IMG/VR virus record: IMGVR_UViG_3300025411_001047
Coordinates: 1-43,104 of that record
Strand: one strand, 5' to 3'
From: a virus
Length of the DNA: 43,104 bases
Of the stretch, positions 6,083 through 41,219 are shown piece after piece. A program made the translations under genes and the position numbers. The stretch's first letter is position 1; each line of letters begins with the position of its first letter. The notes under the pieces were generated by a model that made no database searches, was not told the DNA's origin, and saw only the letters and a list, made by a program, of their open reading frames with translations.

Positions 6083-6126
6083 TACCTAATAGTATAATAT
6101 AGAACTATCTTTTTTCTACTGTAAAC

Positions 6127-7664: not shown

Positions 7665-7975
7665 TGGTATTCTTTTCTATCGTCTAATTCTGGTTTATTT
7701 TTTTCCGTCCACATCATACACATAATATTCCACACAGCAGCTGCAGCATGATCCTCACTGTCTTCTCCTTGCCAGTATTTCATTAAATGACGCTGTGCAC
7801 TGTCATAATATACTGACGTATTCATACCTTTCTTCCAGTTATTGAAACCGTACTTCTGCCCGCCTACAACAAAGTGGCTTGCCACTCTCATTAATTCTTC
7901 ATGAGGCACCAGGCTAACTCTTGGTTTGCCAACATCAGTGTCTCTTTGTGCACCTGTATCAAATTGTCTTTTCAT
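7661..7975 (-). CDS. dATP/dGTP diphosphohydrolase N-terminal-domain-like protein
   Basis: A 104-residue protein that resembles a small phage domain annotated as dATP/dGTP diphosphohydrolase, N-terminal. The visible pattern is GKPRVSLVP, then VGGQKYGFNNWKKG, then a helix with RHLMKYWQGEDSEDHAAAAVWN. The His/Glu/Asp-rich helix pair resembles all-alpha MazG-like NTP hydrolases that bind metal. If active it would alter the purine dNTP pool. It lies inside a run of glycosyltransferases with short overlaps on both sides, so it is co-expressed with sugar-transfer enzymes. A direct role in the deazaguanine pathway is not required, because DpdA works after replication. Confidence 0.6.
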   Translation of the reverse strand: MKRQFDTGAQRDTDVGKPRVSLVPHEELMRVASHFVVGGQKYGFNNWKKGMNTSVYYDSAQRHLMKYWQGEDSEDHAAAAVWNIMCMMWTEKNKPELDDRKEYQ

Positions 7976-8780
7976 TTTGTAATATATTGTTATATATCCA
8001 ATCTTCTGATAAAATATAGTTTTGTGCTAATTTAAAGTTTTCTTCAATAGCTGCTTTCTTACTATCGTATAATTCTACTGTACAATTTTTAAGCTTCTCT
8101 TTTAAATCATACAAGTCATTAAAGATAATAAAACCATCAGTATTAAAGAATTTATCAATAGAAGGACACCCCCAGTATATAGGAATTGTACCAGACATCA
8201 AGGTATCAATAAGCTTTTCTGTAAAATAAAAATCTCTCTTACAGTTTTCAATTGCAAAATGATATCGGTAATCCGCTAATCCTTCTATTTTATGCATGGG
8301 GTTTTTCTTAAACTGAATATAGGAAGGACCGAAAGCATCCACCTTATTACCAGCGGCTTGTATTATTTGATGTCTTAATTTGTGACCGGGCAGTTGGTTT
8401 TTGTTCGAAGCTATAATAGAGAACATTTTGCTCTTTTCATATATTTTTCTTTCAGGTACTTCTAACCAACACCCTCCAACCGGATACCATTTAGCGTTTG
8501 GTAAAGACAAAAACTCTTTATCGTGTGTCCATATTTCTTTATAAAAAGCTGAATTAGCTTTGACATACTCATATGGCTGTGGGTTAATTTCATAAGGTTC
8601 TAATAACCATGCAATATTGCCTTTATCTAATTGGTAATCAGTACACACCACATCAGTTCCATGTGGAGCGTCGCTGCGGTTCCATATTATATGTTCAGAA
8701 ATGCTTACTGGTGGTGTTGGATTATTACTAAACGCGCAGTGACCGAAATTAGAGTCTTTTATGTATAATTCTTTTTTCAT
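7959..8780 (-). CDS. GT10-type fucosyltransferase-like protein
   Basis: A 273-residue protein. I start it at the ATG at 8780 because this gives an ATGA overlap with the upstream gene; an ATG four codons earlier (8792) is also possible. Residues about 174-204 hold the GT10 signature: YHFAIENC, then FYFTEKLIDTLMSGTIPIYWG. In GT10 (alpha-1,3/1,4-fucosyltransferases) this segment binds GDP-fucose. The length is that of a catalytic domain alone, with no membrane-anchoring basic tail like that of Helicobacter enzymes. It sits directly after a GT11-type gene. No GDP-fucose synthesis gene is in the window. Some family members use other donors. Confidence 0.78.
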   Translation of the reverse strand: MKKELYIKDSNFGHCAFSNNPTPPVSISEHIIWNRSDAPHGTDVVCTDYQLDKGNIAWLLEPYEINPQPYEYVKANSAFYKEIWTHDKEFLSLPNAKWYPVGGCWLEVPERKIYEKSKMFSIIASNKNQLPGHKLRHQIIQAAGNKVDAFGPSYIQFKKNPMHKIEGLADYRYHFAIENCKRDFYFTEKLIDTLMSGTIPIYWGCPSIDKFFNTDGFIIFNDLYDLKEKLKNCTVELYDSKKAAIEENFKLAQNYILSEDWIYNNILQNEKTI

Positions 8781-9565
8781 ACTTTTATCCACCCCTCTGC
8801 TTGCAAATCTTTACCATCTGATGGCCCGTTAATACCAAACCACTGTTTGGGCATAACAACAACTTTATCTCTATTTGTGTTTAACCAAGCTGCCCACCAT
8901 GAAAAGGAGGAATTAGTTATTATATTGTTGCTACACAAAGACATCATAACAAAATCATCCATGTCGTTTCTACCTTGCATAAATAATACCTTTTTACCTG
9001 TTTTAGTAAACAGTTGTTTATTTTCTTTACACCAATTTATGTCATCAGACATTACTATATAAGTGTTAACAGTGGTTAAGCTTTCAACTTTAAGTTGAGC
9101 GTTATACCAATAGGTTTCAGGTTGCTGTACATGTATATCAGGGTATTTTAAATAGTCTCCGCGACGTACATGTATAGAGCATGTATTGGTTATACCATTT
9201 AAAGAGTCTTTTATTGGTTGTATATACTCATTTTTAAATGTAAAGAAATTGCGTATTGTGTTTTTTGCTTCAGGAGAACTGAAGTATTTTTCACTTTGAA
9301 AATAACCTTCAAGGTATGTAAATGTATTTTTTGGCAACACTACCGGGTTATAATCAAAGCTCTGTTCTTTTACAATATTACCTGTTCCTGGCGCTAAACC
9401 CGGTAACTGCTCGTTAAAGTAACGATTATTACTCCATTCTGCAAAACCATACTTTAAATTATTGCTGATAGCAATACCTATCGTACTTGCAATTAAAAAT
9501 AATTGATTACCAAACCCATAACCACTACGTTTTACGTTAGTTATACCTAAATGTGTTACTTGCAT
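8777..9565 (-). CDS. GT11-type alpha-1,2-fucosyltransferase-like protein
   Basis: A 262-residue enzyme with the GT11 motifs in order: GFGNQLF at 17-23, HVRRGDYL at 132-139 (the GDP-fucose-binding HxRRxD motif), SDDINWC near 173, and NSSFSWWAAWLN at 218-229. Family members add fucose in alpha-1,2 linkage to galactose, as in O-antigen and H-type structures. The gene overlaps the upstream GT2 by 10 bases and the GT10-type gene by 4, so the two fucosyltransferase types are translated together. All motif residues look intact, so I expect an active enzyme. Confidence 0.88.
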   Translation of the reverse strand: MQVTHLGITNVKRSGYGFGNQLFLIASTIGIAISNNLKYGFAEWSNNRYFNEQLPGLAPGTGNIVKEQSFDYNPVVLPKNTFTYLEGYFQSEKYFSSPEAKNTIRNFFTFKNEYIQPIKDSLNGITNTCSIHVRRGDYLKYPDIHVQQPETYWYNAQLKVESLTTVNTYIVMSDDINWCKENKQLFTKTGKKVLFMQGRNDMDDFVMMSLCSNNIITNSSFSWWAAWLNTNRDKVVVMPKQWFGINGPSDGKDLQAEGWIKV

Positions 9566-10353
9566 TTATAAATTTCTTTTAAGCGTTGTAGTACTACAGA
9601 AAGACCGGTATCAGGGTTTTCTACAGCTGATACACCGTGTATCTTTCTGTAATGATCAGCACCTTTATACATATTTTCAGTCCATTTTTCGGTATGTGTA
9701 ATAGAACTGTTTTGTATAGAGCCTGGTATTTCTTTAAGTAATTCATCACTACCTTCTACATCTGGAAACCACCAAAATGCAGGCAAATAGTTTTTCTTAA
9801 TTGCTCTTTGACACAGCTCTACGTGTTCCCATGCATTTTGAAAAAATGTATCATGATAACCAACATCTGTCATAAATTGACGATGAAAATACGAAAACGC
9901 TCCAACACAATGAAAATTAAGTGCAACTTTTATATTATTTGGGTATTCTACAATATACCTCGGATTTGGTTTACTATAATCTGGTGTTCTGTTGGCTGGT
10001 CCATGATAACCGAAATTTAAATGACGTATACCTGTACCATTAGCAGTATCTATATATTTTTGCCAAACATCAGGTGTTTGAATTAAAATATCATTTTCAA
10101 CAAGAAATATATGTTCACATTCTCTATTGACTAACACCTGCATAGCTCTATTTTTAGCTCTCCCAACTGATTGATATGGCGGTCTATTGTTCATTATTTC
10201 AATACCATCAGGTAATGCACCATCTGGTATTTTAATACCATCATTAATTAAAATAATATCAGTTAACGGGCCTTTATTCGCAAGTATACTTGCAACACAC
10301 TGTTTAGTGTATTCCAATCTATCACATGCTATTACTGCTGCTCCTATTTTCAT
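9556..10353 (-). CDS. GT2-like glycosyltransferase
   Basis: A 265-residue GT-A protein. It begins IGAAVIACDRLEYTKQCVASIL and continues with ILINDG, SVGRAKNRAMQ and FLVENDILI (83-91), where END takes the place of the usual DxD. A later HVELCQRA segment could provide the catalytic base. These features match GT2-like phage enzymes. Its start overlaps the gene 47 stop as ATGA, so the glycosyltransferase run begins directly after a recombination gene. Donor and acceptor are not evident. Confidence 0.72.
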   Translation of the reverse strand: MKIGAAVIACDRLEYTKQCVASILANKGPLTDIILINDGIKIPDGALPDGIEIMNNRPPYQSVGRAKNRAMQVLVNRECEHIFLVENDILIQTPDVWQKYIDTANGTGIRHLNFGYHGPANRTPDYSKPNPRYIVEYPNNIKVALNFHCVGAFSYFHRQFMTDVGYHDTFFQNAWEHVELCQRAIKKNYLPAFWWFPDVEGSDELLKEIPGSIQNSSITHTEKWTENMYKGADHYRKIHGVSAVENPDTGLSVVLQRLKEIYKCK

Positions 10354-16933: not shown

Positions 16934-17398
16934 ATGTCAAAATACACTTCTACTAAAGTTATTCCGTTAGGGTCGTGCGCATTTCGCCAACCTTTTGCAA
17001 ACAGTCACTGTCACTTTATTCATGGTTATAGATTACAAGCTAAGTTCTGGTTTGAATGTAATCAATTAGATGATAACAATTGGGTAGTAGATTTTGGTGC
17101 TCTTAAACCGCTTAAGACAGCATTAGAAGAGCAGTTTGATCATACAACTGTAGTGTGGGAAAAGGATCCCGAACTACAAACATTTCAAATGCTCAATAAA
17201 AAAGAGATTATAGATTTACGTATAATGTCTGGCGGTGTAGGTATTGAAAAGTTTGCTGAATATTGTCATAAAGAAGCAAATGAATTTGTAAATGATCTCA
17301 CATTAGGTCGTTGCTGGTGTTCTAAAGTTGAAGTGTGGGAACACCCGGACAATTCAGCTATATTTGAAACAATTCATGATGGAGAGTGGAAAAGCTAA
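16934..17398 (+). CDS. queD: 6-carboxy-tetrahydropterin synthase (QueD), phage type
   Basis: A 154-residue T-fold enzyme. QueD converts dihydroneopterin triphosphate to 6-carboxy-tetrahydropterin, the second step towards preQ0. Visible motifs are SHCHFIHGYRL (24-34) with the catalytic Cys26 in the C-x3-H-G segment, WVVDFGALK (50-58), FDHT (68-71) for the catalytic Asp/His pair, and a late Glu (VEVWE). Compared with E. coli QueD, the last zinc His of HGH is Tyr (HGY, residue 32), and the expected His near residue 17 is in a CAFRQ segment. Other phage-type QueD proteins, as I recall them, share this pattern. queE follows 21 bases later. Confidence 0.85.
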   Translation: MSKYTSTKVIPLGSCAFRQPFANSHCHFIHGYRLQAKFWFECNQLDDNNWVVDFGALKPLKTALEEQFDHTTVVWEKDPELQTFQMLNKKEIIDLRIMSGGVGIEKFAEYCHKEANEFVNDLTLGRCWCSKVEVWEHPDNSAIFETIHDGEWKS

Positions 17399-17419
17399 TC
17401 TTATATAATATAATAACGT

Positions 17420-18223
17420 ATGCCAATTGACCCTAATAAAACTTTATTTCTTTCAGACGATTTCGTATTTTATACATTAGAAGGTGAAGGCCGTTATATC
17501 GGTTACCCTTCAGTGTTTATGAGATTGTCTATGTGCAACCTTACGTGTATCGGTTTTAAAAGTGAAGATGCACCATTTGGTTGTGACTCTTATGTCAGCT
17601 GGTCTAAGAAGAACAAGATGACGTTTGAAGAGATTGCTCAATTTTACGAAAAGAATGGTTATGATGAGAATCTAAGACAAGGCGCTCTACTTAAAATTAC
17701 CGGTGGTGAACCTTTTATTCAGCAAAAGAACTTAATTGAGTTCGTTAAATTTATTAGAGATCGTTGGGGTTTTGCAAACTATAGTAAAACTCTCACTATG
17801 GATGATACTAACAGACCATCATTACATATTGATTTTGAAACTAATGCTACTTTAATGCCTGACCCAGAATGGGATCAAATTGGTTGTATTGTTACATACA
17901 CAACATCGCCAAAACTATCAAGTAATGGAGACCCTGAAGATAAGCGCTTTAAACCAGAAGTCTTACGTTTCTTAGTAAAGAAAGATGCTTGTTTTAAGTT
18001 CGTAGCAAGACAAGAGTCTGATTTAAATGAAGTGTTAGAAAAATATTTAAACAACCCAGATGTAGGTTTACGTTCAGAGCAAGTATGGATTATGCCTTGC
18101 TGTGGTAGTCGTAAAGAATTATTAGAAGTTGGACCAGTAGTAGCAGAGCTTTGCAAAAAGTATGGTTTTAAATTCTCTAACAGATTACACTTGCAAGTTT
18201 GGGATCGCGCACTCAAGGTTTAA
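17420..18223 (+). CDS. queE: 7-carboxy-7-deazaguanine synthase (QueE), radical SAM
   Basis: A 267-residue radical-SAM enzyme that contracts the pterin ring to 7-carboxy-7-deazaguanine. It has FYTLEGEGRYIGYPSVFMRL, matching the family's substrate-binding start. The cluster cysteines are probably C39, C43 and C55 (CNLTC...GCD), spaced C-x3-C-x11-C instead of the standard C-x3-C-x2-C. GGEP is at 95-98 for SAM binding. A C-terminal VWIMP segment is also typical. It is in one run with queD and followed by a small membrane-protein gene 3 bases later. Confidence 0.87.
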   Translation: MPIDPNKTLFLSDDFVFYTLEGEGRYIGYPSVFMRLSMCNLTCIGFKSEDAPFGCDSYVSWSKKNKMTFEEIAQFYEKNGYDENLRQGALLKITGGEPFIQQKNLIEFVKFIRDRWGFANYSKTLTMDDTNRPSLHIDFETNATLMPDPEWDQIGCIVTYTTSPKLSSNGDPEDKRFKPEVLRFLVKKDACFKFVARQESDLNEVLEKYLNNPDVGLRSEQVWIMPCCGSRKELLEVGPVVAELCKKYGFKFSNRLHLQVWDRALKV

Positions 18224-22380: not shown

Positions 22381-23103
22381 ATGAATAAAGCATTAGTTAT
22401 ATTATCGGGCGGAATGGATAGTACTGTATTACTACACTATGTAACTAAAACACTTAAATACGATGAAGTATATGCTGTTACTTTTAACTATGGTCAACGG
22501 ATTGCTCGAGAAATCGATTGTGCTAAGTTTCAAGCTAAAGCATGCAATGTTAAAGAACATAAAGTAATTAATATGGATTTCTTTAGAGATATCTCTACGA
22601 TGTCTGCTTTAACTAATACAGACCTTAAGATACCAAAAGCTAAGGATGATGTTGGTAATGCTCAACCTTTAAGTTATGTACCCTTTAGAAACCTATTATT
22701 ATTAACAAGCGCAGCTGGTTGGGCTGAATCTATTGGTGCACAAGACTTGTTTTATGGGGCTGTAGAGACTGATGACTTTAGTGGTTATTGGGATTGTACT
22801 TCAATGTTTCTAAATAAGGTTAATGACATTTACGGTCTTAATCGCAAGAATACTATTAAAGTTAATGCGCCGTTTATGCGCTATTCTAAAGAAGAAGTAA
22901 TTAAGACCGGTATTGACTTACAGGTAGACTTTAGACAAACACACACCTGCTATGAGGGTACAGATCCTGCTTGCGGTGAATGTGTGTCGTGCGCTGCTCG
23001 TATTAAAGGCTTTATTGACAACAAAACTATTGATCCCGTTAAATATTCACGTAATATACCTTGGGAACAATACGATTGTAAACCTTTAACCTATTTAACA
23101 TAA
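22381..23103 (+). CDS. queC: 7-cyano-7-deazaguanine synthase (QueC)
   Basis: A 240-residue PP-loop ATPase. It turns 7-carboxy-7-deazaguanine, ammonia and ATP into preQ0 (7-cyano-7-deazaguanine). The ATP-binding PP-loop SGGMDST is at 9-15, and the C-terminal zinc site has C190, C198, C201 and C204 (HTCYEG...CGECVSC), all intact. The length matches bacterial QueC. The next gene, a glutamine amidotransferase, begins one base after the stop, which suggests a working pair. It is not fused to that domain as in the Gat-QueC proteins of some archaea and phages. Confidence 0.93.
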   Translation: MNKALVILSGGMDSTVLLHYVTKTLKYDEVYAVTFNYGQRIAREIDCAKFQAKACNVKEHKVINMDFFRDISTMSALTNTDLKIPKAKDDVGNAQPLSYVPFRNLLLLTSAAGWAESIGAQDLFYGAVETDDFSGYWDCTSMFLNKVNDIYGLNRKNTIKVNAPFMRYSKEEVIKTGIDLQVDFRQTHTCYEGTDPACGECVSCAARIKGFIDNKTIDPVKYSRNIPWEQYDCKPLTYLT

Positions 23104-24181: not shown

Positions 24182-24445
24182 ATGAAGGGTATACAATTAA
24201 CGTTAGAAGAAAAACAACTATTGGTAGAGGCTTTATTATTTTCAAGCATCACCGATATTTGTGCTGAGTGGACACCAAAACAACATCAGCTCATGGTTGA
24301 ACTCGCTAAAAAATTTAACAGTAGTGATATTAAACTCAATAACATATATCTATTCGAAGGTGGCCCGTTTGATAACCCTGTTTTAGCAGAACAAACTAAA
24401 AAAGATTTTATCAATTTACCCCGTAGTAGTGTTATTGTTGACTAA
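24182..24445 (+). CDS. Hypothetical small protein
   Basis: An 87-residue protein starting at the ATG of TATATATG at 24182. A longer TTG-started form (24149) would add eleven hydrophobic residues and is less likely. It has helical segments (LTLEEKQLLVEALLF, PKQHQLMVELAKKF) and ends with RSSVIVD. No domain recognised. Its stop overlaps the next ATG (TAATG), coupling it to a glycosyltransferase-like gene. Confidence 0.5.
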   Translation: MKGIQLTLEEKQLLVEALLFSSITDICAEWTPKQHQLMVELAKKFNSSDIKLNNIYLFEGGPFDNPVLAEQTKKDFINLPRSSVIVD

Positions 24446-25125
24446 TGAACATTAATATAGGTTTTTGTTCTACTGCTACTTCTTATTCTGCTCTTAAAGA
24501 AAGAGACAAATACACTATTGTTAATAGTGAAAATTTAGATACAATTACTACTGTTAGCGGTGTCTTTAATAATAAGACATCTATAGCTAAAATTTATAAT
24601 TCTTTTATTGAGCGTTATAAAGATGAAGATTGTATATTGGTATTAGCGCACGATGATGTACTTATTACTGATAAGAACTGGACACTTAAATTACATCAAG
24701 CAATTGAAAAGTATGATGTGGTGGGATTAGCAGGTGGTAGTAATCCTGCAATTAGACAGCCTTGTTTATGGCATATAATGTGTCCAAGGGAAACTCATAG
24801 CGGTACAGTAGGACACCATATGGACAATAAGACGTTTAAAACTCATTTTGGTAAAACCGGAAGAGTGTTATTACTTGATGGTTTGTTTTTAGCATTTAAC
24901 CCCAAAAAATTATTTAAAGCTGGAGTAAGTTTTGATGAAACATGTCCAGCTAAGTTTCATTTTTATGATATTGATTTCAGTTTACAGTGTAATAAAGCTA
25001 AACTAAAACTCGGTACTATTAATATCGATGCTGTACATGCATCCCCTGGACTTAAATCCTTTACTAAAGACTGGAATGACGGTCAAGATTGGTTTATAAA
25101 CAAATTTAACCGTGGAGAATATTAA
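24445..25125 (+). CDS. Glycosyltransferase-like protein (GT2 fold)
   Basis: A 226-residue protein. Strand and acidic motif LVLAHDDVLI near residue 70-80 replaces DxD, and the segment LLLDGLFLAFNPKKLF followed by FHFYDIDFSLQC is the acceptor-site region of GT2-like enzymes, where the DID acids may act as base. The N-terminus (NINIGFCSTATSYS) is unlike the other GTs here. It is the only GT gene inside the plus-strand metabolic block. The sugar and acceptor cannot be told. Confidence 0.65.
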   Translation: MNINIGFCSTATSYSALKERDKYTIVNSENLDTITTVSGVFNNKTSIAKIYNSFIERYKDEDCILVLAHDDVLITDKNWTLKLHQAIEKYDVVGLAGGSNPAIRQPCLWHIMCPRETHSGTVGHHMDNKTFKTHFGKTGRVLLLDGLFLAFNPKKLFKAGVSFDETCPAKFHFYDIDFSLQCNKAKLKLGTINIDAVHASPGLKSFTKDWNDGQDWFINKFNRGEY

Positions 25126-25146
25126 AATTTATATTAACATACAACT

Positions 25147-25728
25147 ATGATTATTACAGACCAAAAAATATATAATGGCGACTTTATTCATAAGCGTTTC
25201 GCTTATAAGTATTTTAGAGATCGCACTCTACCTATTGGTAATATTGTTAGCTTTGTAGCACCTGTTGAGGTTACATTAAACCTTATTGACTTAGAAGATT
25301 CATTAGAAAAAGACTATATTTATAGTGATTCTATGATTAATTTCTGTTGGGAAATACCTAACTTAGACCCGTTTGGTGCAGTATGTTTTCAACGCTTGTT
25401 TAATACTTCTATTGCTAATATCTTACAGAAGATTATCAATAAGCCTATTGAAATGAAAGGCGATGATATTATGGTACATGCTGAATTTACACAAGGTGGT
25501 GTTGTACAGCAAAAAGGTAAAGCTTCTGTCAGTATTACATATTCAAAAGATAATGTAGCTATTGGCCACACTGGTGTTAACTTAGTAGCCGGTAAACAAG
25601 CTCCTGCCTTTGCATTTAGTACTAACCTAACACCGGAACAAACTGCGAAATTCCAGAATGCCGTTATTGATCAATTTTATAGTATGGTAGATAATATCTT
25701 TATTGCTACCACTAAAATTACTGTTTAA
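25147..25728 (+). CDS. DUF366-like protein
   Basis: A 193-residue protein that by memory of the family resembles DUF366, an uncharacterised domain described from archaea. Shared elements are an opening YNGDFIHKRFAYKYFRD, an IVSFVAPVEV strand, LIDLEDSL followed by DYIYSDSMINFCWE, a QRLFNTSIANIL helix, then KASVSITY and HTGVNLV. No enzyme motif is known to me. Linking it to deazaguanine chemistry would be speculation. It starts a coupled run with the clamp-loader-like and GroES-like genes (TAATG overlap). Confidence 0.55.
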   Translation: MIITDQKIYNGDFIHKRFAYKYFRDRTLPIGNIVSFVAPVEVTLNLIDLEDSLEKDYIYSDSMINFCWEIPNLDPFGAVCFQRLFNTSIANILQKIINKPIEMKGDDIMVHAEFTQGGVVQQKGKASVSITYSKDNVAIGHTGVNLVAGKQAPAFAFSTNLTPEQTAKFQNAVIDQFYSMVDNIFIATTKITV

Positions 25729-27316: not shown

Positions 27317-28924
27317 ATGTTGCTCAATAAACCGTTACTCGATTACTTTCCTACTGGTTATACACCAAGACCACATCAAATAAAAGGTCTTCAGGATATT
27401 GAAGCGGCTATAAAAAAAGAAAAGAAGTTTATTATTGTACAGGCGCCTACCGGTTCGGGTAAGTCGTTTATCAGTAAAACTCTTTCCAATGCAACCGATG
27501 AATGTGATTCCGAATTCAAAAACTTAGTTTTTAACTACCATGCATATGACGAAGATTATATAGATGTAATGGCCAGGTTTCCGTTACATGGCTTGTTTGC
27601 ACTCACTACCACTAAGGCTTTACAGAATCAGTATAAAGAACTATTTAATGAGTCTTCTATATTTAAAGGCAAGTCTAATTATCAGTGTGATGTAGATGAG
27701 AGCTTTACAGTAGATTATGCCCCGTGTGTTATTACGCAGAAGATGAGAAAAGAATGCTGGGAAGAGCATCGCTGTCCGTATTATGAAGCACGTAACAGTG
27801 CTTTAATAGAAAAGTTTACTGTATTAAATTATGCTTCGTTTTTTAACTTGCCCGATCATTTAAAACATAGACAGGTTATTGTTGCAGATGAGTGTTCAGA
27901 ATTAGAAGACGAAATCGTAAAGAACTTCTCTACATTAATTGATTACCGTCGTTTAACACAAAGCGATATAGAATACACTAAGTTAACATCTGATAACTCT
28001 AATAAAGCTTTAGGTTGGTTAACAGACTTAGCTGAATCTGTTAAAGGGGTAATTGACTCACGCGCAAATCGCTCTCGTTACGATAGTAACAAGGTAGAAC
28101 TCATACAACAGCAGTTTAGAAAAGACCTTTATGAGTCTATTGTTAATACTATAGACCATTGGGAGGATACGCAATACATTATTGAGAAAGATGGTGAAAA
28201 GGCTATCTTTACACCTCTAAAAATAGATAAACTCAGCGGTTGTTTGTTTGATTATGCAGATACAGTAATTTTAATGAGCGCAACTATTGTAGACAAAAAC
28301 ATATTTGCAAAAACATTAGGTATTACTGATTTTGAATATGTAGAGATTGAATCTACCTTTGATCCTAAAAAGAGCCCTATTTATTGCCACACCAAATATC
28401 CATTAAATCACAAGTTAATGGAAAAGAACCTACCACCGGTGGTAGAAATAGCTAATACATTAGCAGATAGTCATAAAGGTGAAAAAGGCATAATACATAC
28501 ACACTCTTTTGCTATTACACAAGCTGTACAAAAGAAGCTTAAAGGTAAGCGCTTTTTATGGAGAGAAGAAGGTACTACTAATGAAGACATTATTAAACAG
28601 CACGTTCTTAGACCAGATGATACAGTTTTAGTTAGTCCCTCTTTAACTATGGGATTAGACTTAAAAGGCGATTTAGGTAAGTGGCAAGTTATTATAAAGC
28701 TACCATATCCATCTTTAGGTGGTAAACGTGTTAAGAAGCTCTTCGAAGAGGATCCAGGTTGGTATAAAATGAGAATGTTTATTGCATTAATACAAGCTTG
28801 TGGAAGGTGTACCAGAAGTGTTGAAGACGAAAGCGTGACTTACATATTGGATGGTTTATCCGCTAAAACTATAATAGATAATAAGAAGATCTTACCTAAA
28901 CACTTTTTAGATCGTATTGTATAA
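27317..28924 (+). CDS. DinG/XPD-type helicase with iron-sulfur cluster
   Basis: A 535-residue superfamily 2 helicase. After RPHQIKGLQDI comes Walker A APTGSGKS (43-50). Four cysteines, C124, C137, C147 and C153 (NYQC, APC, KEC, HRCPYYEARN), form the Fe-S cluster typical of DinG, XPD and Bacillus-like CasDinG. The DExx box is DECS at 191-194, then LSATIVD, TMGLDLKG and QACGRCTRS. Such enzymes unwind 5'-3' and act on R-loops or D-loops. It is a second SF2 helicase besides UvsW. It stands with its own upstream gap, before the tail gene. Confidence 0.88.
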   Translation: MLLNKPLLDYFPTGYTPRPHQIKGLQDIEAAIKKEKKFIIVQAPTGSGKSFISKTLSNATDECDSEFKNLVFNYHAYDEDYIDVMARFPLHGLFALTTTKALQNQYKELFNESSIFKGKSNYQCDVDESFTVDYAPCVITQKMRKECWEEHRCPYYEARNSALIEKFTVLNYASFFNLPDHLKHRQVIVADECSELEDEIVKNFSTLIDYRRLTQSDIEYTKLTSDNSNKALGWLTDLAESVKGVIDSRANRSRYDSNKVELIQQQFRKDLYESIVNTIDHWEDTQYIIEKDGEKAIFTPLKIDKLSGCLFDYADTVILMSATIVDKNIFAKTLGITDFEYVEIESTFDPKKSPIYCHTKYPLNHKLMEKNLPPVVEIANTLADSHKGEKGIIHTHSFAITQAVQKKLKGKRFLWREEGTTNEDIIKQHVLRPDDTVLVSPSLTMGLDLKGDLGKWQVIIKLPYPSLGGKRVKKLFEEDPGWYKMRMFIALIQACGRCTRSVEDESVTYILDGLSAKTIIDNKKILPKHFLDRIV

Positions 28925-28930
28925 GTATAT
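28922..28930 (+). promoter_or_regulatory. Candidate late promoter variant TAAGTATAT
   Basis: The box lies across the stop codon of the helicase gene and ends 2 bases before the GTG start of the tail gene. The same sequence TAAGTATAT is found in the capsid gene leader (38237-38245). Confidence 0.4.
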
Positions 28931-28932
28931 AA

Positions 28933-30924
28933 GTGCAGAACTACACGTATCATTGGGAGGTAAAGGATTTATTAACACAATTTCTTAATGCTTTTGATGG
29001 AGCAGTTGTGAAGCGTTATGATATACATGGTAATGTAGGTAACAATATTGCAGTTAGATATGTTTATGCACCCAAACAACGTGTTCTTTTTGATTTAGTT
29101 GACCCAGCACAGAATTTTACATTACCAGTAGTAGCGTTCTATATTAGTAGTGTCAGTAGGGATCAATCCAGAGTATTTAATAAGCTCTATGGTCAGTTTA
29201 ACGTTAACCCTAACATAGCCGCTTTTACTCCTTCCACCGCTGATCAAAACTTACAACCAGTACCAGTCAATATAGAAGTTAGCGTTAGTATAGTGACACG
29301 TTTTCAGACAGATATGGATCAAATTTTAAGTAATTTTGTTCCATACAGCGACCCGTATTTTATTATTTCTTGGACTCGTAGAGAGATGTCTAACATAGAA
29401 ATTCGTTCTGAAGTACTTTGGAATGGTACATTAACTATGGGTTACCCGGTAGAACAGCAACCCACACAACCAACACGTGTAACGTGTGATACATCATTTA
29501 CTATTAAAGGGTGGTTGTTTAAGGCTGATGCTAACCCTGTAGGAAGAATATTTAAAATTGATACTAATTTTTACCCTGTATCGGGTACTCCTACGTTTGA
29601 AAATCTTGACTACTTAACCGATCCAACTCAAACTGAATCATTTACGATTTCTGCTAAACCTGAAATGCCATATAGTGATCGTTGGTTAACACCTGTCGGT
29701 CTTTCTGGCGCGTTAAACTTATACGGAACAAATTTAAAGTATACAAATTATGTTTACCTTAGCGGTAATAATAATATGTTTGGTACTAACACTCAAACAG
29801 TTAATCTATATGCACTATCATCTGGTTTATCAGCAAACTACCCTGCATTAACTGGTTTAGTGCCAGCCGCAAGTTATTATGTATATAATGATAATAAGTT
29901 GCAAGTAACCTATCCTGCACCATTAACTGTCGGTTATTTTGATATTATTGTATTTAACGATGCAGGTTATACTTTACTTTCAGTTAATTCATATAACTCT
30001 AATCTTTCCGTACAACCACCATACACTCAAGGTATACAGGCTGTATTACCACCCCCACCACAGCCCACCTCAACACCTACACCTACTCCGACATTAACCC
30101 CTACCCCAACACCTGACCCGTCTCCTACCTCTACACCGACTGTAACTCCTGTACCACTTACAGCTACACCTACAGCTACACCTACACCTACAGTAACTTT
30201 AACCCCATCACCTACACCCACGATAACACTAACACCTACTCCATCACCTACTCCAACAGCTACACCTGCTCTTACAGGAACATTGCTACTTAGCGTAGTA
30301 GATGGAACTGACGGTATTGTGTTTAACAGTGTAGGGTATTTAGCAACCAGTATGGTAACGGTTAATATCAATCAACCTTACTCAATTACTGCTATAATTA
30401 GTTATGGGTACGATTTTGAACATTGGAGTCTCACACCTAATGTTGTTGTTGGTAACCCTACAAATACAACTACTACAGTTACCCTTACAGCTGCAGGGGG
30501 TCTTCAAACCATAGGTGCATTTACAGTACTACAACCTACACCGACACCTACACCGGTACCTCCAACACCTACCCCTACACCTACGCGTACACACACCCCA
30601 ACACCTACACCGACTTTAACTCGCACCCCATCCCCTACCCCGACTATTACACCAACCCCAACAGTTAACCTCAGTGTAAGTTTCAATCCAGGCAGACAGA
30701 ATTACATTGAAATTAATGGTGTACAATACACAAGTAGTACGTCTATATCAGGATTGAATGTAAATCAGTCTTATCCAATATCGGTATCCTTAAAAGCAGG
30801 CCAAACGTTTAATAATTGGGGGTATTCAGGCCCTGTAACATTTGCAAGCTCGATTACTAACCCAACAACCTTCACGATAACAGGTGGTGGTCCAGCTACA
30901 ATAAGTGCACTGAGCGGGCCTTAA
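28933..30924 (+). CDS. 15: gp15-like tail terminator fused to Thr-Pro linkers and InlB-like domains
   Basis: A 663-residue protein from a GTG start. Residues about 1-205 look like T4 gp15, the tail sheath stabiliser that closes the tail tip next to the head: [59 protein letters not shown] and [10 protein letters not shown] follow the order in T4 gp15. T4 gp15 is 272 residues. Here about 390 more follow: an IPT/TIG-like Ig domain (near 255-360), a Pro-Thr linker (about 377-446), a divergent InlB B-repeat-like domain (FEHWSL), a second Thr-Pro linker (534-577) and a second such domain (FNNWGYSG). It should project from the neck. Confidence 0.78.
30064..30270 (+). repeat. Hexanucleotide-type ACACCT-like repeat (Thr-Pro linker 1)
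   Basis: A roughly 200-base stretch coding Thr-Pro, with few Ser, Val or Ala steps, written mainly as degenerate ACACCT/ACTCCG-type codon pairs. The repeat unit is six bases, so slippage would keep the frame and change only linker length. The long Pro-Thr run is mucin-like. Confidence 0.75.
30532..30664 (+). repeat. Thr-Pro linker 2 repeat
   Basis: A second degenerate ACACCT-type stretch of about 130 bases in the same gene, coding alternate Thr and Pro with some Arg and His. It separates the two InlB-like domains and has a similar codon make-up to linker 1, so the linker-plus-domain unit may have arisen by duplication. Confidence 0.7.
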
Positions 30925-30977
30925 TAATTTAAAATTGGCATTTTAACAAATCCAGTATATAATAATAGCATACAGTG

Positions 30978-30991: not shown

Positions 30992-32788
30992 ATGGCTGAC
31001 AACGTACAACCTAACTTCTTCACTCGCACATTTAACAATATTGTTAATAGGTTGCCGTATACTGGTAATGCTCAAGTGATTGACAACATCAAAGAACTTA
31101 ATCCTAAGTTCGAAACATTTTATAATATCAACAGTTCTGCTAAAGAACGTGTATTCAAACAAGCTGTTTCTACTCAACAGGATATGCCTGGTATGCCTTC
31201 CCTTGAAGGTATTGTTATTAATAAAGCATATCACGATTTTCTTTATGCCTTAATTGATACAGATAAACCGAAGCGTTTAGCTGATTATCGGGTTATGGCT
31301 TCTTATGCAGAAATTAGCCACGCTTTAGATGAAATCTGTGATGAAATGCTTGTCAAAGATGATAAAGGTAAGTATGTTGGCTTAACAGTAGCTGAAAGTA
31401 AGGATCCGGTTATTGCAAAAGAACTTCAAAAGAACTTTCACAATTTAGTAGAACAGTTTAACTTAGACAATAAAGGCTTTGAATATTTTAGAGCTATATT
31501 AATTGATGCTGAACTGTACTTTGAAAACGTAATACATGAAGATAAAAAGGATGCTGGTATTATAGGTGTAGTACAGATACCTACAGAGCACATTAATCCT
31601 ATTTACGACAACATTCAAAATATGTTAATTAAAGGCTTCTTATTACGTAAGCCTGTTATCGATAAAGATGCTCAAAATAGAAACACATCTAAACAAGAGT
31701 TAATACCTTTAGAACGTCATCAAGTTACATATTTTCATTCTCATACTTGGAACGAACACAAAACTATTCGTTTACCATATCTTGAAGTAGCACGTAGAGC
31801 ATACAAGCAATTAAGTTTAATTGAAGATAGTATTATTGTTTATCGTTTAGTAAGAGCTCCAGAACGCTTAGTATTTAAAGTAGATGTAGGTAATTTACCT
31901 GCACCTAAAGCAGAAGCTTATATTAAACGTTTAATGCAATCATATTGGTCACGTAGAACATACGATAACGATCAAGGTGGTAATGTTAATGTTTACGACC
32001 CACAATCAATGTTAGATAGTTATTGGTTTGCTAAACGTCCAGATGGTACAGGTACAGACGTTACTTCATTACCAGGTGGTGCTAACTTAGGTCAATTAGA
32101 TGATTTAAATTACTTTGTTAAGAAGCTCTATAAAGCATTACGCGTACCAACAAGCCGTTTAGACCCAGAAGCAAAGTATGCTGATGGTGCTGAAATTTTA
32201 CGTGAAGAGCTTAAGTTTGCACGTCTTATTATTCGTTTCCAACGTCAATTTGCTTCTACATTAAAAGAAACTTTAATTACTCATTTAAAGTTAAAAGGTC
32301 TTTGGGACCAATACAAATTAAAAGAACATGATATACATGTAGCGTTTAACCCACCTACTTATTTCCACGTAGCACGTGAAGCTCAGATACACGATTTAAA
32401 AGTTAAGTCATTAAACGATGCTATTCAAACTGAAGCTGTATCAAAATCATATGCCCTTAAGAAGTATATGAACTGGACTGATGATGAACTTAAAGTTAAT
32501 CGTGAATGGATGAAAAAAGACGCTGCTTTTGCTTTTGAAGTTGCACAAATTACTAATGCTGGCCCTAATTGGCGTCAAGGCATTACAGGTGGTGGTGCAC
32601 AGGGCGGTGGCGGTGGTGGTGGAGCTGGTGGTACGCCTCCAGCATTTGGTCCAGCACCAGGTGGCGGTGGTAGTGCATTACCTCCAGCGGGTGGTGAAGC
32701 TCCTGCAGGCGGAGGTGAGGCTGGTGGAGAAGCTCCTGCAGCTCCTGAACCAGCTGGTGGTGCTCCAAGCGCGCTTCCAGGTACTTAA
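30992..32788 (+). CDS. 20: Portal vertex protein, gp20-like
   Basis: A 598-residue portal protein. The dodecameric portal is the DNA entry channel and head-nucleation site. Visible T4-family features are the start FFTRTFNNIVNRLPYTG, ALDEICDEML, the LERHQVTYFHSHTW stretch, RLVRAPERLVFKVDVGNLP, and the highly typical SRLDPEAKYADGAEILREELKFARLIIRFQ near residue 390. T4 gp20 has 524 residues. The extra length is in a C-terminal tail of about 65 residues that is almost only Gly, Ala and Pro, described separately. The gene is followed after 29 bases by a converging neck-protein gene. Confidence 0.93.
   Translation: MADNVQPNFFTRTFNNIVNRLPYTGNAQVIDNIKELNPKFETFYNINSSAKERVFKQAVSTQQDMPGMPSLEGIVINKAYHDFLYALIDTDKPKRLADYRVMASYAEISHALDEICDEMLVKDDKGKYVGLTVAESKDPVIAKELQKNFHNLVEQFNLDNKGFEYFRAILIDAELYFENVIHEDKKDAGIIGVVQIPTEHINPIYDNIQNMLIKGFLLRKPVIDKDAQNRNTSKQELIPLERHQVTYFHSHTWNEHKTIRLPYLEVARRAYKQLSLIEDSIIVYRLVRAPERLVFKVDVGNLPAPKAEAYIKRLMQSYWSRRTYDNDQGGNVNVYDPQSMLDSYWFAKRPDGTGTDVTSLPGGANLGQLDDLNYFVKKLYKALRVPTSRLDPEAKYADGAEILREELKFARLIIRFQRQFASTLKETLITHLKLKGLWDQYKLKEHDIHVAFNPPTYFHVAREAQIHDLKVKSLNDAIQTEAVSKSYALKKYMNWTDDELKVNREWMKKDAAFAFEVAQITNAGPNWRQGITGGGAQGGGGGGGAGGTPPAFGPAPGGGGSALPPAGGEAPAGGGEAGGEAPAAPEPAGGAPSALPGT
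32586..32785 (+). repeat. Gly/Ala/Pro-rich coding repeat at the portal C-terminus
   Basis: About 200 bases of GGTGGTGG-, GCTCCTGC- and CCAGCA-type low-complexity sequence code a Gly-run, a PAPGGGG segment and EAPAGG/EAPAAPEP steps. It is the only long Gly tract in the window and locally much richer in G and C. Confidence 0.7.
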
Positions 32789-32817: not shown

Positions 32818-33702
32818 CTACCCCATAAAAAATCCTGGAGGTTCTTGATCTTCTTGACGCGTATTGAGTAATTGATCTTCAAGATCTTTCTTTTCAGTTG
32901 TACCTTGCGTCATTAACTCACTATATTGTAGTGTACCACTACCAAATAGTTGCGTGTTTTGGAACTTACCGCGTGTATTAGCTATGTTAATCTTAACAAG
33001 CGCTTTTGCGTATTCCATTACCCAACGCTCTTTAACTAAATCTTTTATTGGTCTTTCTATTCTACAGCTTACTGTAGCCCAGTATCTGTCTTTGCCAGCC
33101 ATGGCTGGATCTGGAGTAATACGTAGTACTTGGGTACGAGGATCGAATCGGAAATAAGGTTGCTGTGCAAATACCTTTTCACGCGTCTTTAACCAATCTT
33201 TTAAAATGTGCCAAGAAATAACGTCAAACGCTTTGCTACCTAAGCTATATGCAAAGTGCATTTGCTGTGCCATTGATTGTTCAATAGTAAACAATGTATT
33301 AACACCGTTATTTGAACCCACTGAAAATGAAGTAACATCGATTACTTTTCTGTAATCATTCATATCTACATCCCATCCCGACTGAAATGTTGAACTTAAG
33401 GCAGATACTTCTGGATTTAAAGTATTATTAATGAGCGTGTCCATTCTAATACCCTGACCGTATGTGTACAGGGCACTATCAAACACAATTAATTCTTCTG
33501 TGCCTGGTGTAAACTTTGAATACAACTCTATTGCATAAGCAATAGCATCATAAGCTGCATTACAAGCAATTTCTAAATTAATTACAGGTGCACCAAGCTG
33601 AAAAAAGATACGCTCAGCAAGCATATCATAGCTCTGAATTCTACTATTTAAATTTGTAGATAAAAAGTCTGAAGGACCTACGGTGCTGGAAGGATTAGCC
33701 AT
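32818..33702 (-). CDS. 13: Neck protein, gp13-type
   Basis: A 294-residue protein. The N-terminal ILAERIFFQLGAPVI-like stretch (here AERIFFQLGAPVINLEIACNAAYDA) followed by AIAYAIELYSKFT is a known signature of T4-like neck proteins, in which LGAPxxxxE is followed by a helical YxxxY region. T4 gp13 (309 residues) forms the collar with gp14 and joins head and tail. The C-terminal half with ITPDP and IERPIKDLVKERWVMEYAKALVKIN suggests an all-structural protein. gp13 and gp14 are hard to tell apart by eye. It lies opposite to the portal, next to sugar-transferase genes. Confidence 0.6.
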   Translation of the reverse strand: MANPSSTVGPSDFLSTNLNSRIQSYDMLAERIFFQLGAPVINLEIACNAAYDAIAYAIELYSKFTPGTEELIVFDSALYTYGQGIRMDTLINNTLNPEVSALSSTFQSGWDVDMNDYRKVIDVTSFSVGSNNGVNTLFTIEQSMAQQMHFAYSLGSKAFDVISWHILKDWLKTREKVFAQQPYFRFDPRTQVLRITPDPAMAGKDRYWATVSCRIERPIKDLVKERWVMEYAKALVKINIANTRGKFQNTQLFGSGTLQYSELMTQGTTEKKDLEDQLLNTRQEDQEPPGFFMG

Positions 33703-33713
33703 ATCGCTAATAC

Positions 33714-34187
33714 TTACTTATCACTCAATAGTTTTGATAACGTATCCATTACTTCCTGTGCACTTACAAATGCATCTTTATTATAATCACATTGTTCCCA
33801 TAACCAAAACTGTTTATCTCTAAGATATCTCTTGTCTTTTAACATATTAATATTACGGGTATATCCAAAGATCTTAGGGTCTGATTGACTGAATATAACA
33901 ATACCTCTTTGCAGTTTATGATATGCACATAAATGCTGTAAAAAACTATCTACAGATATCCACGTATCACATTCAGTTACAAGATCTTTAATCTCAGATA
34001 GTCGAAGGTTTTGTTTAAAAACATCAACCCCGGGTAACTGTTTATCTTTAGTAGAACCAATCTGTATAACAGTAATACCAGCTTGTTTCATTAAACCAAT
34101 TAAATCTTCCCAATAAGGAAAGTTTTTAGGGTTTTCTTTACCGTTACGTAATAACTGTGCAAATGGGCTTATGAGTACTTTTTTCAT
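33714..34187 (-). CDS. GT9-like C-terminal half (heptosyltransferase type)
   Basis: A 157-residue protein. I start it at 34187 (MKKVLISPFAQ), which overlaps the upstream stop by ATGA; the frame is open 15 codons further. KNFPYWEDLIGLMKQAGITVIQIGS and CDTWISVDSFLQHLCAYHKLQRGIVIFSQSDP are the nucleotide-sugar half of GT9 (heptosyltransferase) proteins: the first strand-helix, then TWISVDSFLQH, the family's SxxxH-type active segment. A full GT9 is about 320-350 residues, and the N-terminal half appears at the end of the preceding gene. The two may form a split enzyme. Confidence 0.6.
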   Translation of the reverse strand: MKKVLISPFAQLLRNGKENPKNFPYWEDLIGLMKQAGITVIQIGSTKDKQLPGVDVFKQNLRLSEIKDLVTECDTWISVDSFLQHLCAYHKLQRGIVIFSQSDPKIFGYTRNINMLKDKRYLRDKQFWLWEQCDYNKDAFVSAQEVMDTLSKLLSDK

Positions 34188-35233
34188 GATGTGTACATTG
34201 TTTTTAGTGCTTCGGATAGAGATTTTTTCCAATTACGCTGGTCCATCCATCTATATACATTACATTCTTCTTCATTAACAAAAGACGTAGCGTCACTTAA
34301 ACTAACTATTTCTATATTTTCTTCTCCTTCAAATACAGCCGGGTAACAAGCACCTATAACAATCCTACATCCTTTCCACTTTTCTTTAATAGCGGGTAAT
34401 ATACTTCTAAAAGCATAGTGATCACCTATACCACTGTTTAACGGGAATATCTTAACGTTTGAGGGTTTTATACCCCACTTTTTAAGATAGTCATAAAATA
34501 TACTTTCATCTCGTTCGAACATCTTTACTTGTTGATCGCTTCGAATACCACCAGCACCAAAGCGCATGTGCCAGGTCTTTACCCCGGTCATTACAACCAG
34601 CTTCCAACCAGCACGTCTCATTTCATACGTGAAGATTGTTTCTTCTCTATGGCCCACTTTAGATAAATTTAAGTCATAACCATGAGCACCTGCTTCTTTA
34701 CGAAATAAAAATGTACTACCTTGCAAGTGGTCTACTTCAATAAAAGATTCTACTTTAGGATCACACCACTGTATGTTCATCCCCATGAATATATCTTCAA
34801 TCTTATTTGAAGCTAATTTATTATTTATTTCACTTTTTGGGTCTAAGATAAGCGGACCTACAGCAGCTATTTTAGGATCAGTAATAATATAATTATAAAG
34901 CTTTTCAAGAGTGTCTGGCTCCATTATATTATCATCATCTAAACGCCATATAAACTCAGACTTTACGTCTGTTAATGCGCGTTGGTGGTTATGTATTTGA
35001 CCTTTACGCTCACCCACAGTCACTTCCCAATTAATACCTCTTCTGTTGAGTAAAAATAATACATTTCTATAAATTTCATTCTCTCTTATATCTTCAAGCG
35101 TATCATTATCATCGTATATAATAAGCCTTGAGGGTCTAAGAGTTTGATTAGCTAAAGATGTTAATACTAACGGGAAAGTGTTATGGTACCTACCTTTAGT
35201 TGAAACTGTTGCTGTAACTTTATCTGTTATCAT
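34184..35233 (-). CDS. GT2 glycosyltransferase fused to a GT9-like N-terminal half
   Basis: A 349-residue protein. Residues 1-250 form a GT2 enzyme: VTATVSTKGRYHNTFPLVLTSL, LIIYDD, QRALTDVKSEFIWRLDDDNIM with DDD at 99-101, and a GHREETIF segment with the base-type acid. Residues about 259-349 begin VKIFPLNSGIGDHYAFRSILP, the opening of a GT9 domain (GIGD turn and following helix), and continue with RIVIGACYP. This second domain stops where a full GT9 would go on. The following gene (33714) carries the missing part. Its start overlaps the upstream gene as ATGA. Confidence 0.68.
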   Translation of the reverse strand: MITDKVTATVSTKGRYHNTFPLVLTSLANQTLRPSRLIIYDDNDTLEDIRENEIYRNVLFLLNRRGINWEVTVGERKGQIHNHQRALTDVKSEFIWRLDDDNIMEPDTLEKLYNYIITDPKIAAVGPLILDPKSEINNKLASNKIEDIFMGMNIQWCDPKVESFIEVDHLQGSTFLFRKEAGAHGYDLNLSKVGHREETIFTYEMRRAGWKLVVMTGVKTWHMRFGAGGIRSDQQVKMFERDESIFYDYLKKWGIKPSNVKIFPLNSGIGDHYAFRSILPAIKEKWKGCRIVIGACYPAVFEGEENIEIVSLSDATSFVNEEECNVYRWMDQRNWKKSLSEALKTMYTS

Positions 35234-36306
35234 AATTTTGAAGCTTGCACATACATTGTATGTTCATTGTGTTTTTGAGTGCCATCAATTTTAAAACCAC
35301 TACTAATTAATGTTTGTACAATCACAGCAGTATTTAGCATAGGTACTAAGCTTATCACTTTACCACCACTCTTTAAAACCCGGTACCACTCATCTGTATA
35401 ATTGTTCAACAATGCTAATGGTATTTCATGAATTGAATTTGCTAATGCAATTTCACTTACTGAATTATCGTCAAACTCTAATTCATCCCACTTGCAAACT
35501 ATATCGCTTGTCTTAACAATTGGATGTACTTTAATAAATTCTGGTAAAACATTTCTATCGTATATAGAAGTTAAGTGTAGCTTTATATCTTTTACATATC
35601 TTTTTAAATTAATTAAGCTATTTCGCTTAAAAGTTAATGAACCATAACTTTCAATATCTTCAAACGTACCCTCTGCGTAATGATAAATTGGAAAATTACC
35701 AATCACTGTTTTAGAGGACTCTTCTGATTTTTGCAAATTTGTATCATATGGAACCACCTGTAAGTTATAACCCTTAAGTTGTGCTTTTATACAAAAGTCT
35801 ATATCTTCCCCACCACCCGGTGAAAATACTTCATCCAATAACCCCAATTCGTCGAACAACCTCATTGGTATCATTGCACAGAAGAAAACAACGAACCGAG
35901 TTTTAGTGATTTTATCTATAATCCATAATGGCCCTGTAACGCCCATTTTAGGATCATTAATAAAGGGTAATTCTAACTGCTGTAACCAACAATCTGTAGG
36001 TTGTGGTAATAGTACGGTATCGTTATTAAGGAGGATAGCATATTCTCCTTGTGCAGCTTTAATACCTAAATTAGTAGCTTTAGTATAACCTAAACCCTCT
36101 TTACTTTCTATAAGTTTAATACTTGGGTACTTTACCGATAAATCGTTGACATACACTACTGTATCATCTACACAACCATTAGCTACTACAATAACTTCAG
36201 TATTATTTAAATCCGTATGACGTATAATGCTTTCTAAACATGGCTTCAAGAACTTATCCAAATGATTATACGTCGGTATAATAACACTATATTTCGGTTT
36301 ACCCAT
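35230..36306 (-). CDS. GT2 glycosyltransferase with C-terminal decayed methyltransferase domain
   Basis: A 358-residue protein. Residues 1-215 are a GT2: YSVIIPTYNHLDKFLKPC, ANGCVDD, TKATNLGIKAAQGEYAILLNNDT with NND at 94-96, and FSPGGGEDIDFC at 161-172. Residues about 240-358 resemble a class I methyltransferase: IKLHL, VCKWDELEFDDNSVSEIALANSIHEIP, EWYRVLKSGGKVISLVP. The glycine-rich SAM-binding loop expected after IKLHL is replaced by TSIYDRN, so methyl transfer is doubtful. Its GT2 part resembles the tandem genes at 39853 and 40539 (FSPGYGED). It begins the minus-strand group and faces gene 21. Confidence 0.72.
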   Translation of the reverse strand: MGKPKYSVIIPTYNHLDKFLKPCLESIIRHTDLNNTEVIVVANGCVDDTVVYVNDLSVKYPSIKLIESKEGLGYTKATNLGIKAAQGEYAILLNNDTVLLPQPTDCWLQQLELPFINDPKMGVTGPLWIIDKITKTRFVVFFCAMIPMRLFDELGLLDEVFSPGGGEDIDFCIKAQLKGYNLQVVPYDTNLQKSEESSKTVIGNFPIYHYAEGTFEDIESYGSLTFKRNSLINLKRYVKDIKLHLTSIYDRNVLPEFIKVHPIVKTSDIVCKWDELEFDDNSVSEIALANSIHEIPLALLNNYTDEWYRVLKSGGKVISLVPMLNTAVIVQTLISSGFKIDGTQKHNEHTMYVQASKL

Positions 36307-39852: not shown

Positions 39853-40536
39853 ATGAAAGATACCACAATCGTAATACCAGCTTACAAACCTACGAGTTTG
39901 CTTATAGATTGTGTTAATTCTATTATTAAAAATACAGATCCGGATGTAGCGGATATATTAGTCGTGTGTAATGGTTGCGATAGAGATACAGCTAATTTTT
40001 TATTAGAAAGCAAATCTAACACAGTACGTTTTGTTTGGTATAATGAACCTATAGGCTTCACTAAAGCAGCCAATATAGGTTTGAAGTTAGCTGAAACCCC
40101 CTACATACTATTAATGAATACAGACGTAACTGTATTAGACTGGCCTCCAAAAAATCTTTGGTTAACTAATTTAATTGACCCCTTAAAACAAAACCCTAAA
40201 ACTGCAGTTACTGGTATCTGTAACATGTATTTTAATTATGGTCTTTATATACCGTTTTTTCTTGTAGGTTTACGTAAGACTACCTTAGAACAATTTAACT
40301 ACTTAGATCAAACGTTTAGCCCGGGGTATGGAGAGGATATAGACTTTTGTTTTAAAGCAGTTGCCGCTGGGTACGACTTAAACGTTATAACTAATAATAC
40401 ATCTGTCGATGAAGAAAAAATATATACCGCTCAGTATCCTATATATCATAAAGGTCAAGGTACATTTGGTTCGGTAGGAGAACAATTAGCTGGTAGAGGT
40501 CACGACATAGTATATCAAAGGTATTTTCAAAAATAA
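39853..40536 (+). CDS. GT2 glycosyltransferase (tandem copy 1)
   Basis: A 227-residue GT-A enzyme: TTIVIPAYKPTSLLIDCVNSII, VVCNGCDRDT, FTKAANIGLKLAETPYILLMNTDV with the metal-binding NTD, and FSPGYGEDIDFCFKA. It ends with a YPIYHKGQGTFGSV stretch. It is closely similar in layout to the next gene and to the GT2 half of the fusion at 35230, so the three come from duplications. It lies right after the major capsid gene, an odd place for a sugar enzyme in a T4-like genome, which fits a virion-linked function (inference). Confidence 0.8.
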   Translation: MKDTTIVIPAYKPTSLLIDCVNSIIKNTDPDVADILVVCNGCDRDTANFLLESKSNTVRFVWYNEPIGFTKAANIGLKLAETPYILLMNTDVTVLDWPPKNLWLTNLIDPLKQNPKTAVTGICNMYFNYGLYIPFFLVGLRKTTLEQFNYLDQTFSPGYGEDIDFCFKAVAAGYDLNVITNNTSVDEEKIYTAQYPIYHKGQGTFGSVGEQLAGRGHDIVYQRYFQK

Positions 40537-40538
40537 TC

Positions 40539-41219
40539 ATGTTAGATACAACCATAATAATTCCTGCATATAAACCCTACACTATTTTAAAGCGTTGTGT
40601 AGACTCTATTATTGCTACCACTGATTTAACTAAAGCCTGTGTTGTAGTAGTTTGTAATGGTAGTGACAGAGAGAGTGCAGATTACATTTTAAATCTTAAC
40701 AACCCAGCTATCACGTTTGTTTGGTCACCAGAAGCTTTAGGCTACCCTAAAGCGACTAATATGGGCATTAAAGTAGCTACAACACCGTATGTTATTTTAT
40801 TAAATTCAGATGTAGTGCTGTATAATCAACCTAAACACTGGTGGGTTGAAAAGATGATAGCACCTTTAAGAACTACACCTAATTTAGCTATTACTGGTTT
40901 AACTGAAGTATGGTTAAACGGTAGAAGTTTCTACCCGTTTGCACATGTAGCGCTTAAAAAAGAAGTAATTGAAAAATTAGGCTATATAGACGAAACATTT
41001 AGTCCAGGATACGGAGAAGATGTAGATTTTTGCTTTAAAATTACTGATGCGGGATATGATTCCCTTATAGTAGCAGAGTTGTTTCCTGATAACGAAAAAG
41101 GGATCAATTTATCTACGTTTCCCATATATCATGGCGGAAAAGAATCGTTCGGTGACGAACGTGGTACTGCTTTGCAAAAAAGAGGTTTCGAAATACTTAA
41201 ACAGAGATATTTCTCTTAA
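40539..41219 (+). CDS. GT2 glycosyltransferase (tandem copy 2)
   Basis: A 226-residue paralogue of the gene just before it, starting 2 bases after its stop. It carries TTIIIPAYKPYTILKRCVDSII, VVCNGSDRES, YPKATNMGIKVATTPYVILLNSDV with NSD, FSPGYGEDVDFCFKI and a final PIYHGGKESFGDERG. All motif residues are kept in both copies, so both seem active. Differences lie in the acceptor-side half, suggesting different acceptors or donors. The stop is shared through TTAA with the gene on the other strand. Confidence 0.8.
   Translation: MLDTTIIIPAYKPYTILKRCVDSIIATTDLTKACVVVVCNGSDRESADYILNLNNPAITFVWSPEALGYPKATNMGIKVATTPYVILLNSDVVLYNQPKHWWVEKMIAPLRTTPNLAITGLTEVWLNGRSFYPFAHVALKKEVIEKLGYIDETFSPGYGEDVDFCFKITDAGYDSLIVAELFPDNEKGINLSTFPIYHGGKESFGDERGTALQKRGFEILKQRYFS

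Follow-up and report, generated by a model that had tools for sequence, protein, structure and literature searches.

The gp15 gene and its extension

The window, a 43 kb fragment of an uncultured freshwater T4-like phage, carries an open reading frame (ORF) of 663 aa at 28933-30924 on the + strand, the parts of which are listed in Table 1. The frame is open throughout and begins with GTG, a start codon shared with 14 of the 15 relatives inspected. The family PF16724 (T4-type tail sheath stabiliser) matches residues 4-236 with 74.9 bits against a cut-off of 25 (profile positions 1-230 of 245), and phrog_227, annotated as "tail sheath stabilizer", covers residues 1-242. An AlphaFold2 single-chain model of this core, built from 39 sequences, has moderate confidence, and its closest solved fold is T4 gp15 4huh (Foldseek E 2e-10, TMt 0.70), with T4 gp15 4hud and 9mkb matched as well. 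HMM comparison likewise matches the core to T4 gp15 chains. The gp21 protease and gp23 genes lie nearby, and gp15 thus sits among head-neck genes. T4 gp15 (PF16724; 4HUD, 4HUH, 9MKB) resembles the window protein in core fold, length and gene order and, at 272 aa, ends approximately where the Ig-like domain of the window begins. The sequence-only reading had staked its claim on the N-terminal part being gp15, and PF16724, phrog_227, the T4 gp15 fold and gene order all agree on that identity; the length of 205 residues that it gave to the gp15 stretch was too short, as homology reaches approximately residue 242.

Table 1. Parts of the extended gp15 gene and its downstream neighbours, in window coordinates
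Feature	Residues	Position	Strand	Evidence or remark
gp15 core, tail terminator / sheath stabiliser	1-242	28933..29658	+	PF16724, phrog_227, fold, HMM
Ig-like (TIG-like) domain	243-371	29659..30045	+	model, hhalign, tree
Thr-Pro linker 1	372-446	30046..30270	+	73% Thr+Pro
β-domain 1, InlB-B-repeat-like (Flg_new_2)	447-533	30271..30531	+	PF18998 sub-threshold
Thr-Pro linker 2	534-577	30532..30663	+	82% Thr+Pro
β-domain 2	578-663	30664..30921	+	modelled as beta; no family match
Region missing from L007, whose gp15 C-terminus has a clean indel here		30039..30924	+	blastn: alignment breaks off at 30038 and restarts at 30925
Portal protein (gp20), next gene		30992..32788	+	phrog_213; gap to gp15 67 bp
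gp13-type head-tail adaptor (Ad2)		32818..33702	-	phrog_211

Residues 198-240, immediately ahead of the Ig-like domain, are modelled at very low confidence. By analogy with T4 gp15, in which residues 203-245 contact gp14 (PMC12270204), the segment in the window may require a partner protein. Directly upstream of the gp15 start, a TRTAAGTA motif is conserved in most relatives (window 28895-28932) and is perhaps a late promoter of the T4 type.

The Ig-like domain is modelled as all-beta with pLDDT of about 78-91 over much of residues 241-350. Its fold matches, which include Ig, EBF1, TonEBP and cyclomaltodextrinase Ig domains, are weak (E about 1e-2 to 1e-3), and neither the fused domain nor its separate counterpart described below matches Pfam IPT/TIG; "TIG-like" is used here as a working label only. 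The two linkers are the sole Thr-Pro-rich stretches of this kind in the window. β-domain 1 scores 17.1-19.8 bits against PF18998 (InlB B-repeat / Flg_new_2), below the cut-off of 23.6, and a Pfam profile search with β-domain 2 gave no PF18998 match. A weak structure prediction for the two β-domains, based on three sequences, models β-domain 2 as beta with pLDDT of about 65-84, and a fold search with the low-confidence models of both β-domains returned no match below E 1e-3. In tblastn searches against annotated phages, the β-domains, the Ig-like domain and the further C-terminal domain of a relative (L032, see below) found no match. The proposed order of Ig-like domain, Thr-Pro linker, β-domain, Thr-Pro linker and β-domain is confirmed, with the InlB label falling below its cut-off in the window itself; of the structure predictions suggested alongside it, that of the Ig-like domain gave a good model with weak fold matches, and those of the β-domains gave weak models of unmatched fold. 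In the genome of a close relative (L007), a Thr-Pro protein (L101) with the same layout carries two InlB domains at 52.5 bits and adjoins a collagen-like tail fibre.

Elsewhere in its 43 kb, the window has no fewer than nine genes that pass Pfam cut-offs for glycosyltransferases (3109-10353, 24445-25125, 33714-36306 and 39853-41219), some of them among head and neck genes and including GT9, GT10 fucosyltransferase, GT11 and GT7-type domains; virion, DNA and host glycans are candidate targets. O-glycosylation of the Thr-Pro stalks by phage glycosyltransferases was considered and found no support, since Thr-Pro content does not track the number of GT2 genes, the only type counted: one genome (G017) has 30 Thr-Pro pattern matches and no GT2, and another (G002) has no Thr-Pro match and five GT2. 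A DUF366 protein (PF04017, 69.5 bits) is encoded at 25147-25728 near queC (22381-23103), and genes at 16934-18223 resemble queD/queE by eye; the window likely encodes a pathway to 7-deazaguanines in DNA or tRNA.

Conservation of the extension

Thr-Pro repeats may mislead assemblers, and the first 117 bases of a diverged allele (L087) are identical to the window, like a branch in an assembly graph. Even so, a chimera or misjoined repeat is barely credible here and is refuted in the main. Near-identical DNA occurs in five IMG/VR contigs, three of which hold the entire ORF, and a near-identical reading recurs in contigs of several metagenomes. L087 carries both β-domains in the same order, together with an extra domain of approximately 190 aa. 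Between the window and this allele, dN/dS is 0.22 for β-domain 1, 0.09 for β-domain 2 and 0.21-0.24 for the linkers, compared with 0.10 for the portal gene. The extension described in the sequence-only reading is real and conserved, and it is under purifying selection.

The nearest relative by gp15, L007 (91% over 241 residues), has a clean indel in place of the extension (Table 1). The Thr-Pro extension is therefore dispensable at least in L007.

Fused and separate Ig-like domains behind gp15

A sample of 187 gp15 sequences, comprising the window and uncultured relatives, yields a tree of 106 distinct cores. The search for the fusion in related metagenomic phages, which had been suggested as a check, finds the Ig-like domain fused to gp15 in 34 of these cores, all in a single clade (support 100/99, 100% of bootstraps). 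Among the 72 unfused cores, 26 have a separate Ig-like ORF immediately downstream of gp15, mostly of about 110-140 aa. This ORF overlaps gp15 by ATGA at 17 of 34 loci. The fused domain is a homologue of its separate counterpart, as hhalign aligns the two with a probability of 99, E 6e-18 and 29% identity across 102 columns. A tblastn search with the stand-alone gene against the annotated phage collection gave no match. A programmed frameshift into the Ig-like ORF of the sister lineages was rejected, since each of these ORFs has an ATG of its own, located at the gp15 stop or close to it, and coupled translation is then enough. One lineage (L077), which branches beside the fused clade, has gp15, a stop and then, without a change of frame, the Ig-like ORF. 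A single fusion event is the simplest history on a tree that is rooted by midpoint only and in which L077 forms a long branch. The contig L009 was not counted as a fused-clade member that has the core alone, because its stop lies at the very end of the contig.

Some of the separate genes carry more than the Ig-like domain. In L139, the Ig-like domain is followed by TPTPTP and a FISUMP domain (Fibrobacter-major, PF09603, 89.4 bits). In L169, a gene of 576 aa behind gp15 (4815-6545) joins an Ig-like domain, a Thr-Pro linker, a FISUMP-like domain, a second Thr-Pro linker and a lectin-like domain, all assigned by eye; its order of parts is the layout of the window in unfused form. The fused clade, the separate homologue and the L169 layout together indicate that the window ORF is best read as gp15 joined to a formerly separate and translationally coupled downstream gene for a modular adhesin.

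What follows the Ig-like domain varies within the fused clade. Some members have nothing beyond it (about 356-376 aa) or a short tail (about 400-425 aa), three (L025-L027) have a linker only (446 aa), and L032-L034 have a Thr/Ser linker and another domain (572-644 aa). In L025 (3062-3785) and L026 (7342-8065), gp15 stops within the Thr-Pro linker and an in-frame LamG-like ORF follows after TAATAATATATG, with a double stop between the end of the linker and this ORF; a split fusion or readthrough is possible. In other relatives, the gap between gp15 and portal holds LamG-like lectins (PF13385, 28.8-34.3 bits, cut-off 27.6), collagen-like fibres or a large protein that to the eye resembles a beta-helix spike. 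Modules behind the linkers are thus exchanged between lineages, and the gp15-portal junction is a recombination hotspot. The extra domain of L087 recurs at Thr-Pro-linked positions of large proteins in L090-L094 and also matches crAssphage proteins annotated as "putative tail protein". In a separate observation, several gp15 proteins of one subclade (L042, L043, L056 and others) end in a conserved short tail, IDWxxATFTWDGNTYTWLTV.

The statement that no such extension on gp15 was known did not survive comparison. KVP40-like Vibrio phages QD01 (420 aa) and D481, both isolates, have a gp15 core with a long C-terminal extension as in the window (420-421 aa in all), and proteins of 343-532 aa with the gp15 fold are present in BFVD. 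An extension of gp15 as such is therefore not new. The extension in QD01 and D481 consists of short IDWSVRS-type repeats and, unlike that in the window, has no Ig-like domain and no Thr-Pro linker; the QD01 gp15 (L233, 1849-3111) ends in about 200 residues of such repeats of approximately 15 residues each. The gp15 gene of CPt10 was not located in the first 100 kb of its record. What is new is the string of Ig-like, Thr-Pro and adhesin-type parts on gp15, its separate and coupled homologue, and what is most simply a single fusion between them.

Possible roles of the proposed arms at the neck

Flexible arms at the neck, as the sequence-only reading had proposed, are the natural reading of an extension on gp15. 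The best explanation, with somewhat better than even confidence, is that a fusion of gp15 and adhesin would give six outward, flexible neck arms that bind glycans weakly and reversibly. If gp15 forms a hexameric tail cap as in T4, each virion would bear six arms at the neck. An extended linker spans approximately 0.31 nm per residue, so each arm would run from an Ig-like anchor through a linker of ~23 nm, a β-domain and a second linker of ~14 nm to the last β-domain, with both linkers together reaching about 37 nm. The distal domains would attach in a weak, reversible way to glycans on the host surface or outside the cell, and such binding would hold the virion close to cells until the tail fibres engage. 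We infer the six copies and the outward display from T4, and the display keeps that standing because the segment ahead of the Ig-like domain is modelled at such low confidence. Putative weak binding of host surface glycans is favoured as the role of the arms.

Several observations argue for the adhesin reading. The stand-alone genes of L139 and L169 carry the same kind of string, lectin genes occupy the gp15-portal site in relatives, and related modules occur on virion-like proteins (the L007 genome, L090-L094 and crAssphage). Carbohydrate-binding modules on the neck are also known to bind hosts, if weakly, in 936 lactococcal phages (PMC6669499). There, binding modules displayed on the neck passage structure have demonstrated binding; the 936 phages differ in being siphophages with the module on a separate neck protein rather than on the terminator. 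Against the adhesin reading stand the sub-threshold InlB match in the window, the fold search without a match below the threshold, and L007, which lives without the Thr-Pro extension. In Anabaena phage A-1(L), moreover, a carbohydrate module on the neck fibre failed to bind the host (PMC10966104). The neck fibres of A-1(L) and the fibritin whiskers of T4 are neck appendages, as proposed for gp15 of the window, but are separate trimeric fibre proteins rather than a gp15 fusion. Cyanophage P-SSM2 offers another neck protein that is much extended at its C-terminus, gp14 (470 aa, PF11649 at 3-184), which is a different ring protein and lacks Thr-Pro linkers. Ig-like domains are displayed on virions by T4 Hoc and by gut-phage Ig-like adhesins; Hoc is located on the capsid, and the targets differ from the putative ones of the window.

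T4 whiskers are located at this same place and hold fibres (PMC3004832), which raises the prospect that the arms stand in for fibritin whiskers as a mechanical device that holds or deploys the tail fibres, instead of attaching to cells. A search of nine large contigs from the wider group gave no match to Fibritin_C (PF07921), an absence that is weak evidence because this profile is short and the contigs may be incomplete. The mechanical role is nonetheless improbable, since lineages differ by exchange of the distal domains (InlB-like, L032 type, LamG, FISUMP), which fits binding better than a fixed mechanical partner, and since Vibrio phage QD01 carries fibritin and an extended gp15 together. 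The same turnover could suggest that the extension decorates the virion neutrally or with slight benefit, for stability or shielding, and was acquired by loose recombination at a C-terminus that tolerates additions: extensions are gained and lost, L007 has none, that of L025 stops in the linker, and the junction is a hotspot. This too is unlikely, as the two β-domains are under purifying selection (dN/dS 0.22 and 0.09) and lectin-like content recurs there in a non-random way.

Adhesion to epithelia can be mediated by Ig-like domains that gut phages carry (PMC13370021), and the earlier suggestion of mucus binding would extend to the neck arms the adherence to animal mucus proposed for T4 Hoc. 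That suggestion finds no support and is highly improbable: metagenome 3300006104, the source of a near-identical contig (L002), is tied to a freshwater bog (PMC7449369), which makes animal mucus an unlikely target, and a mucin-like linker composition is not mucin binding. Removal of the extension during assembly, or its absence from virions, is very unlikely as well. A gp21-type prohead protease is encoded nearby, but in T4 assembly gp15 is added with the tail, separate from the prohead where such a protease acts.

A broader reading, for which the odds are somewhat short of even, builds on weak glycan binding by gp15-borne arms and treats the gp15 ring, throughout a large group of uncultured T4-like phages, as a docking platform for neck adhesins of a new class. 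The small Ig-like protein would sit on gp15 and carry exchangeable glycan-binding domains on Thr-Pro stalks, and the fusion would have made this anchor covalent. Fusion in the clade of the window would point to a physical partnership of gp15 and the Ig-like protein where the two are still separate, and the pair of separate and fused genes predicts binding of the unfused Ig-like protein to the ring of gp15. Tail terminators have been seen as plain joints, and the one in the window bears a modular adhesin. If true, this would add a head-proximal adhesion site to fibres, baseplate, capsid and neck fibres, and the small unannotated gene behind gp15 in 26 of the 72 unfused lineages sampled would gain a likely function.
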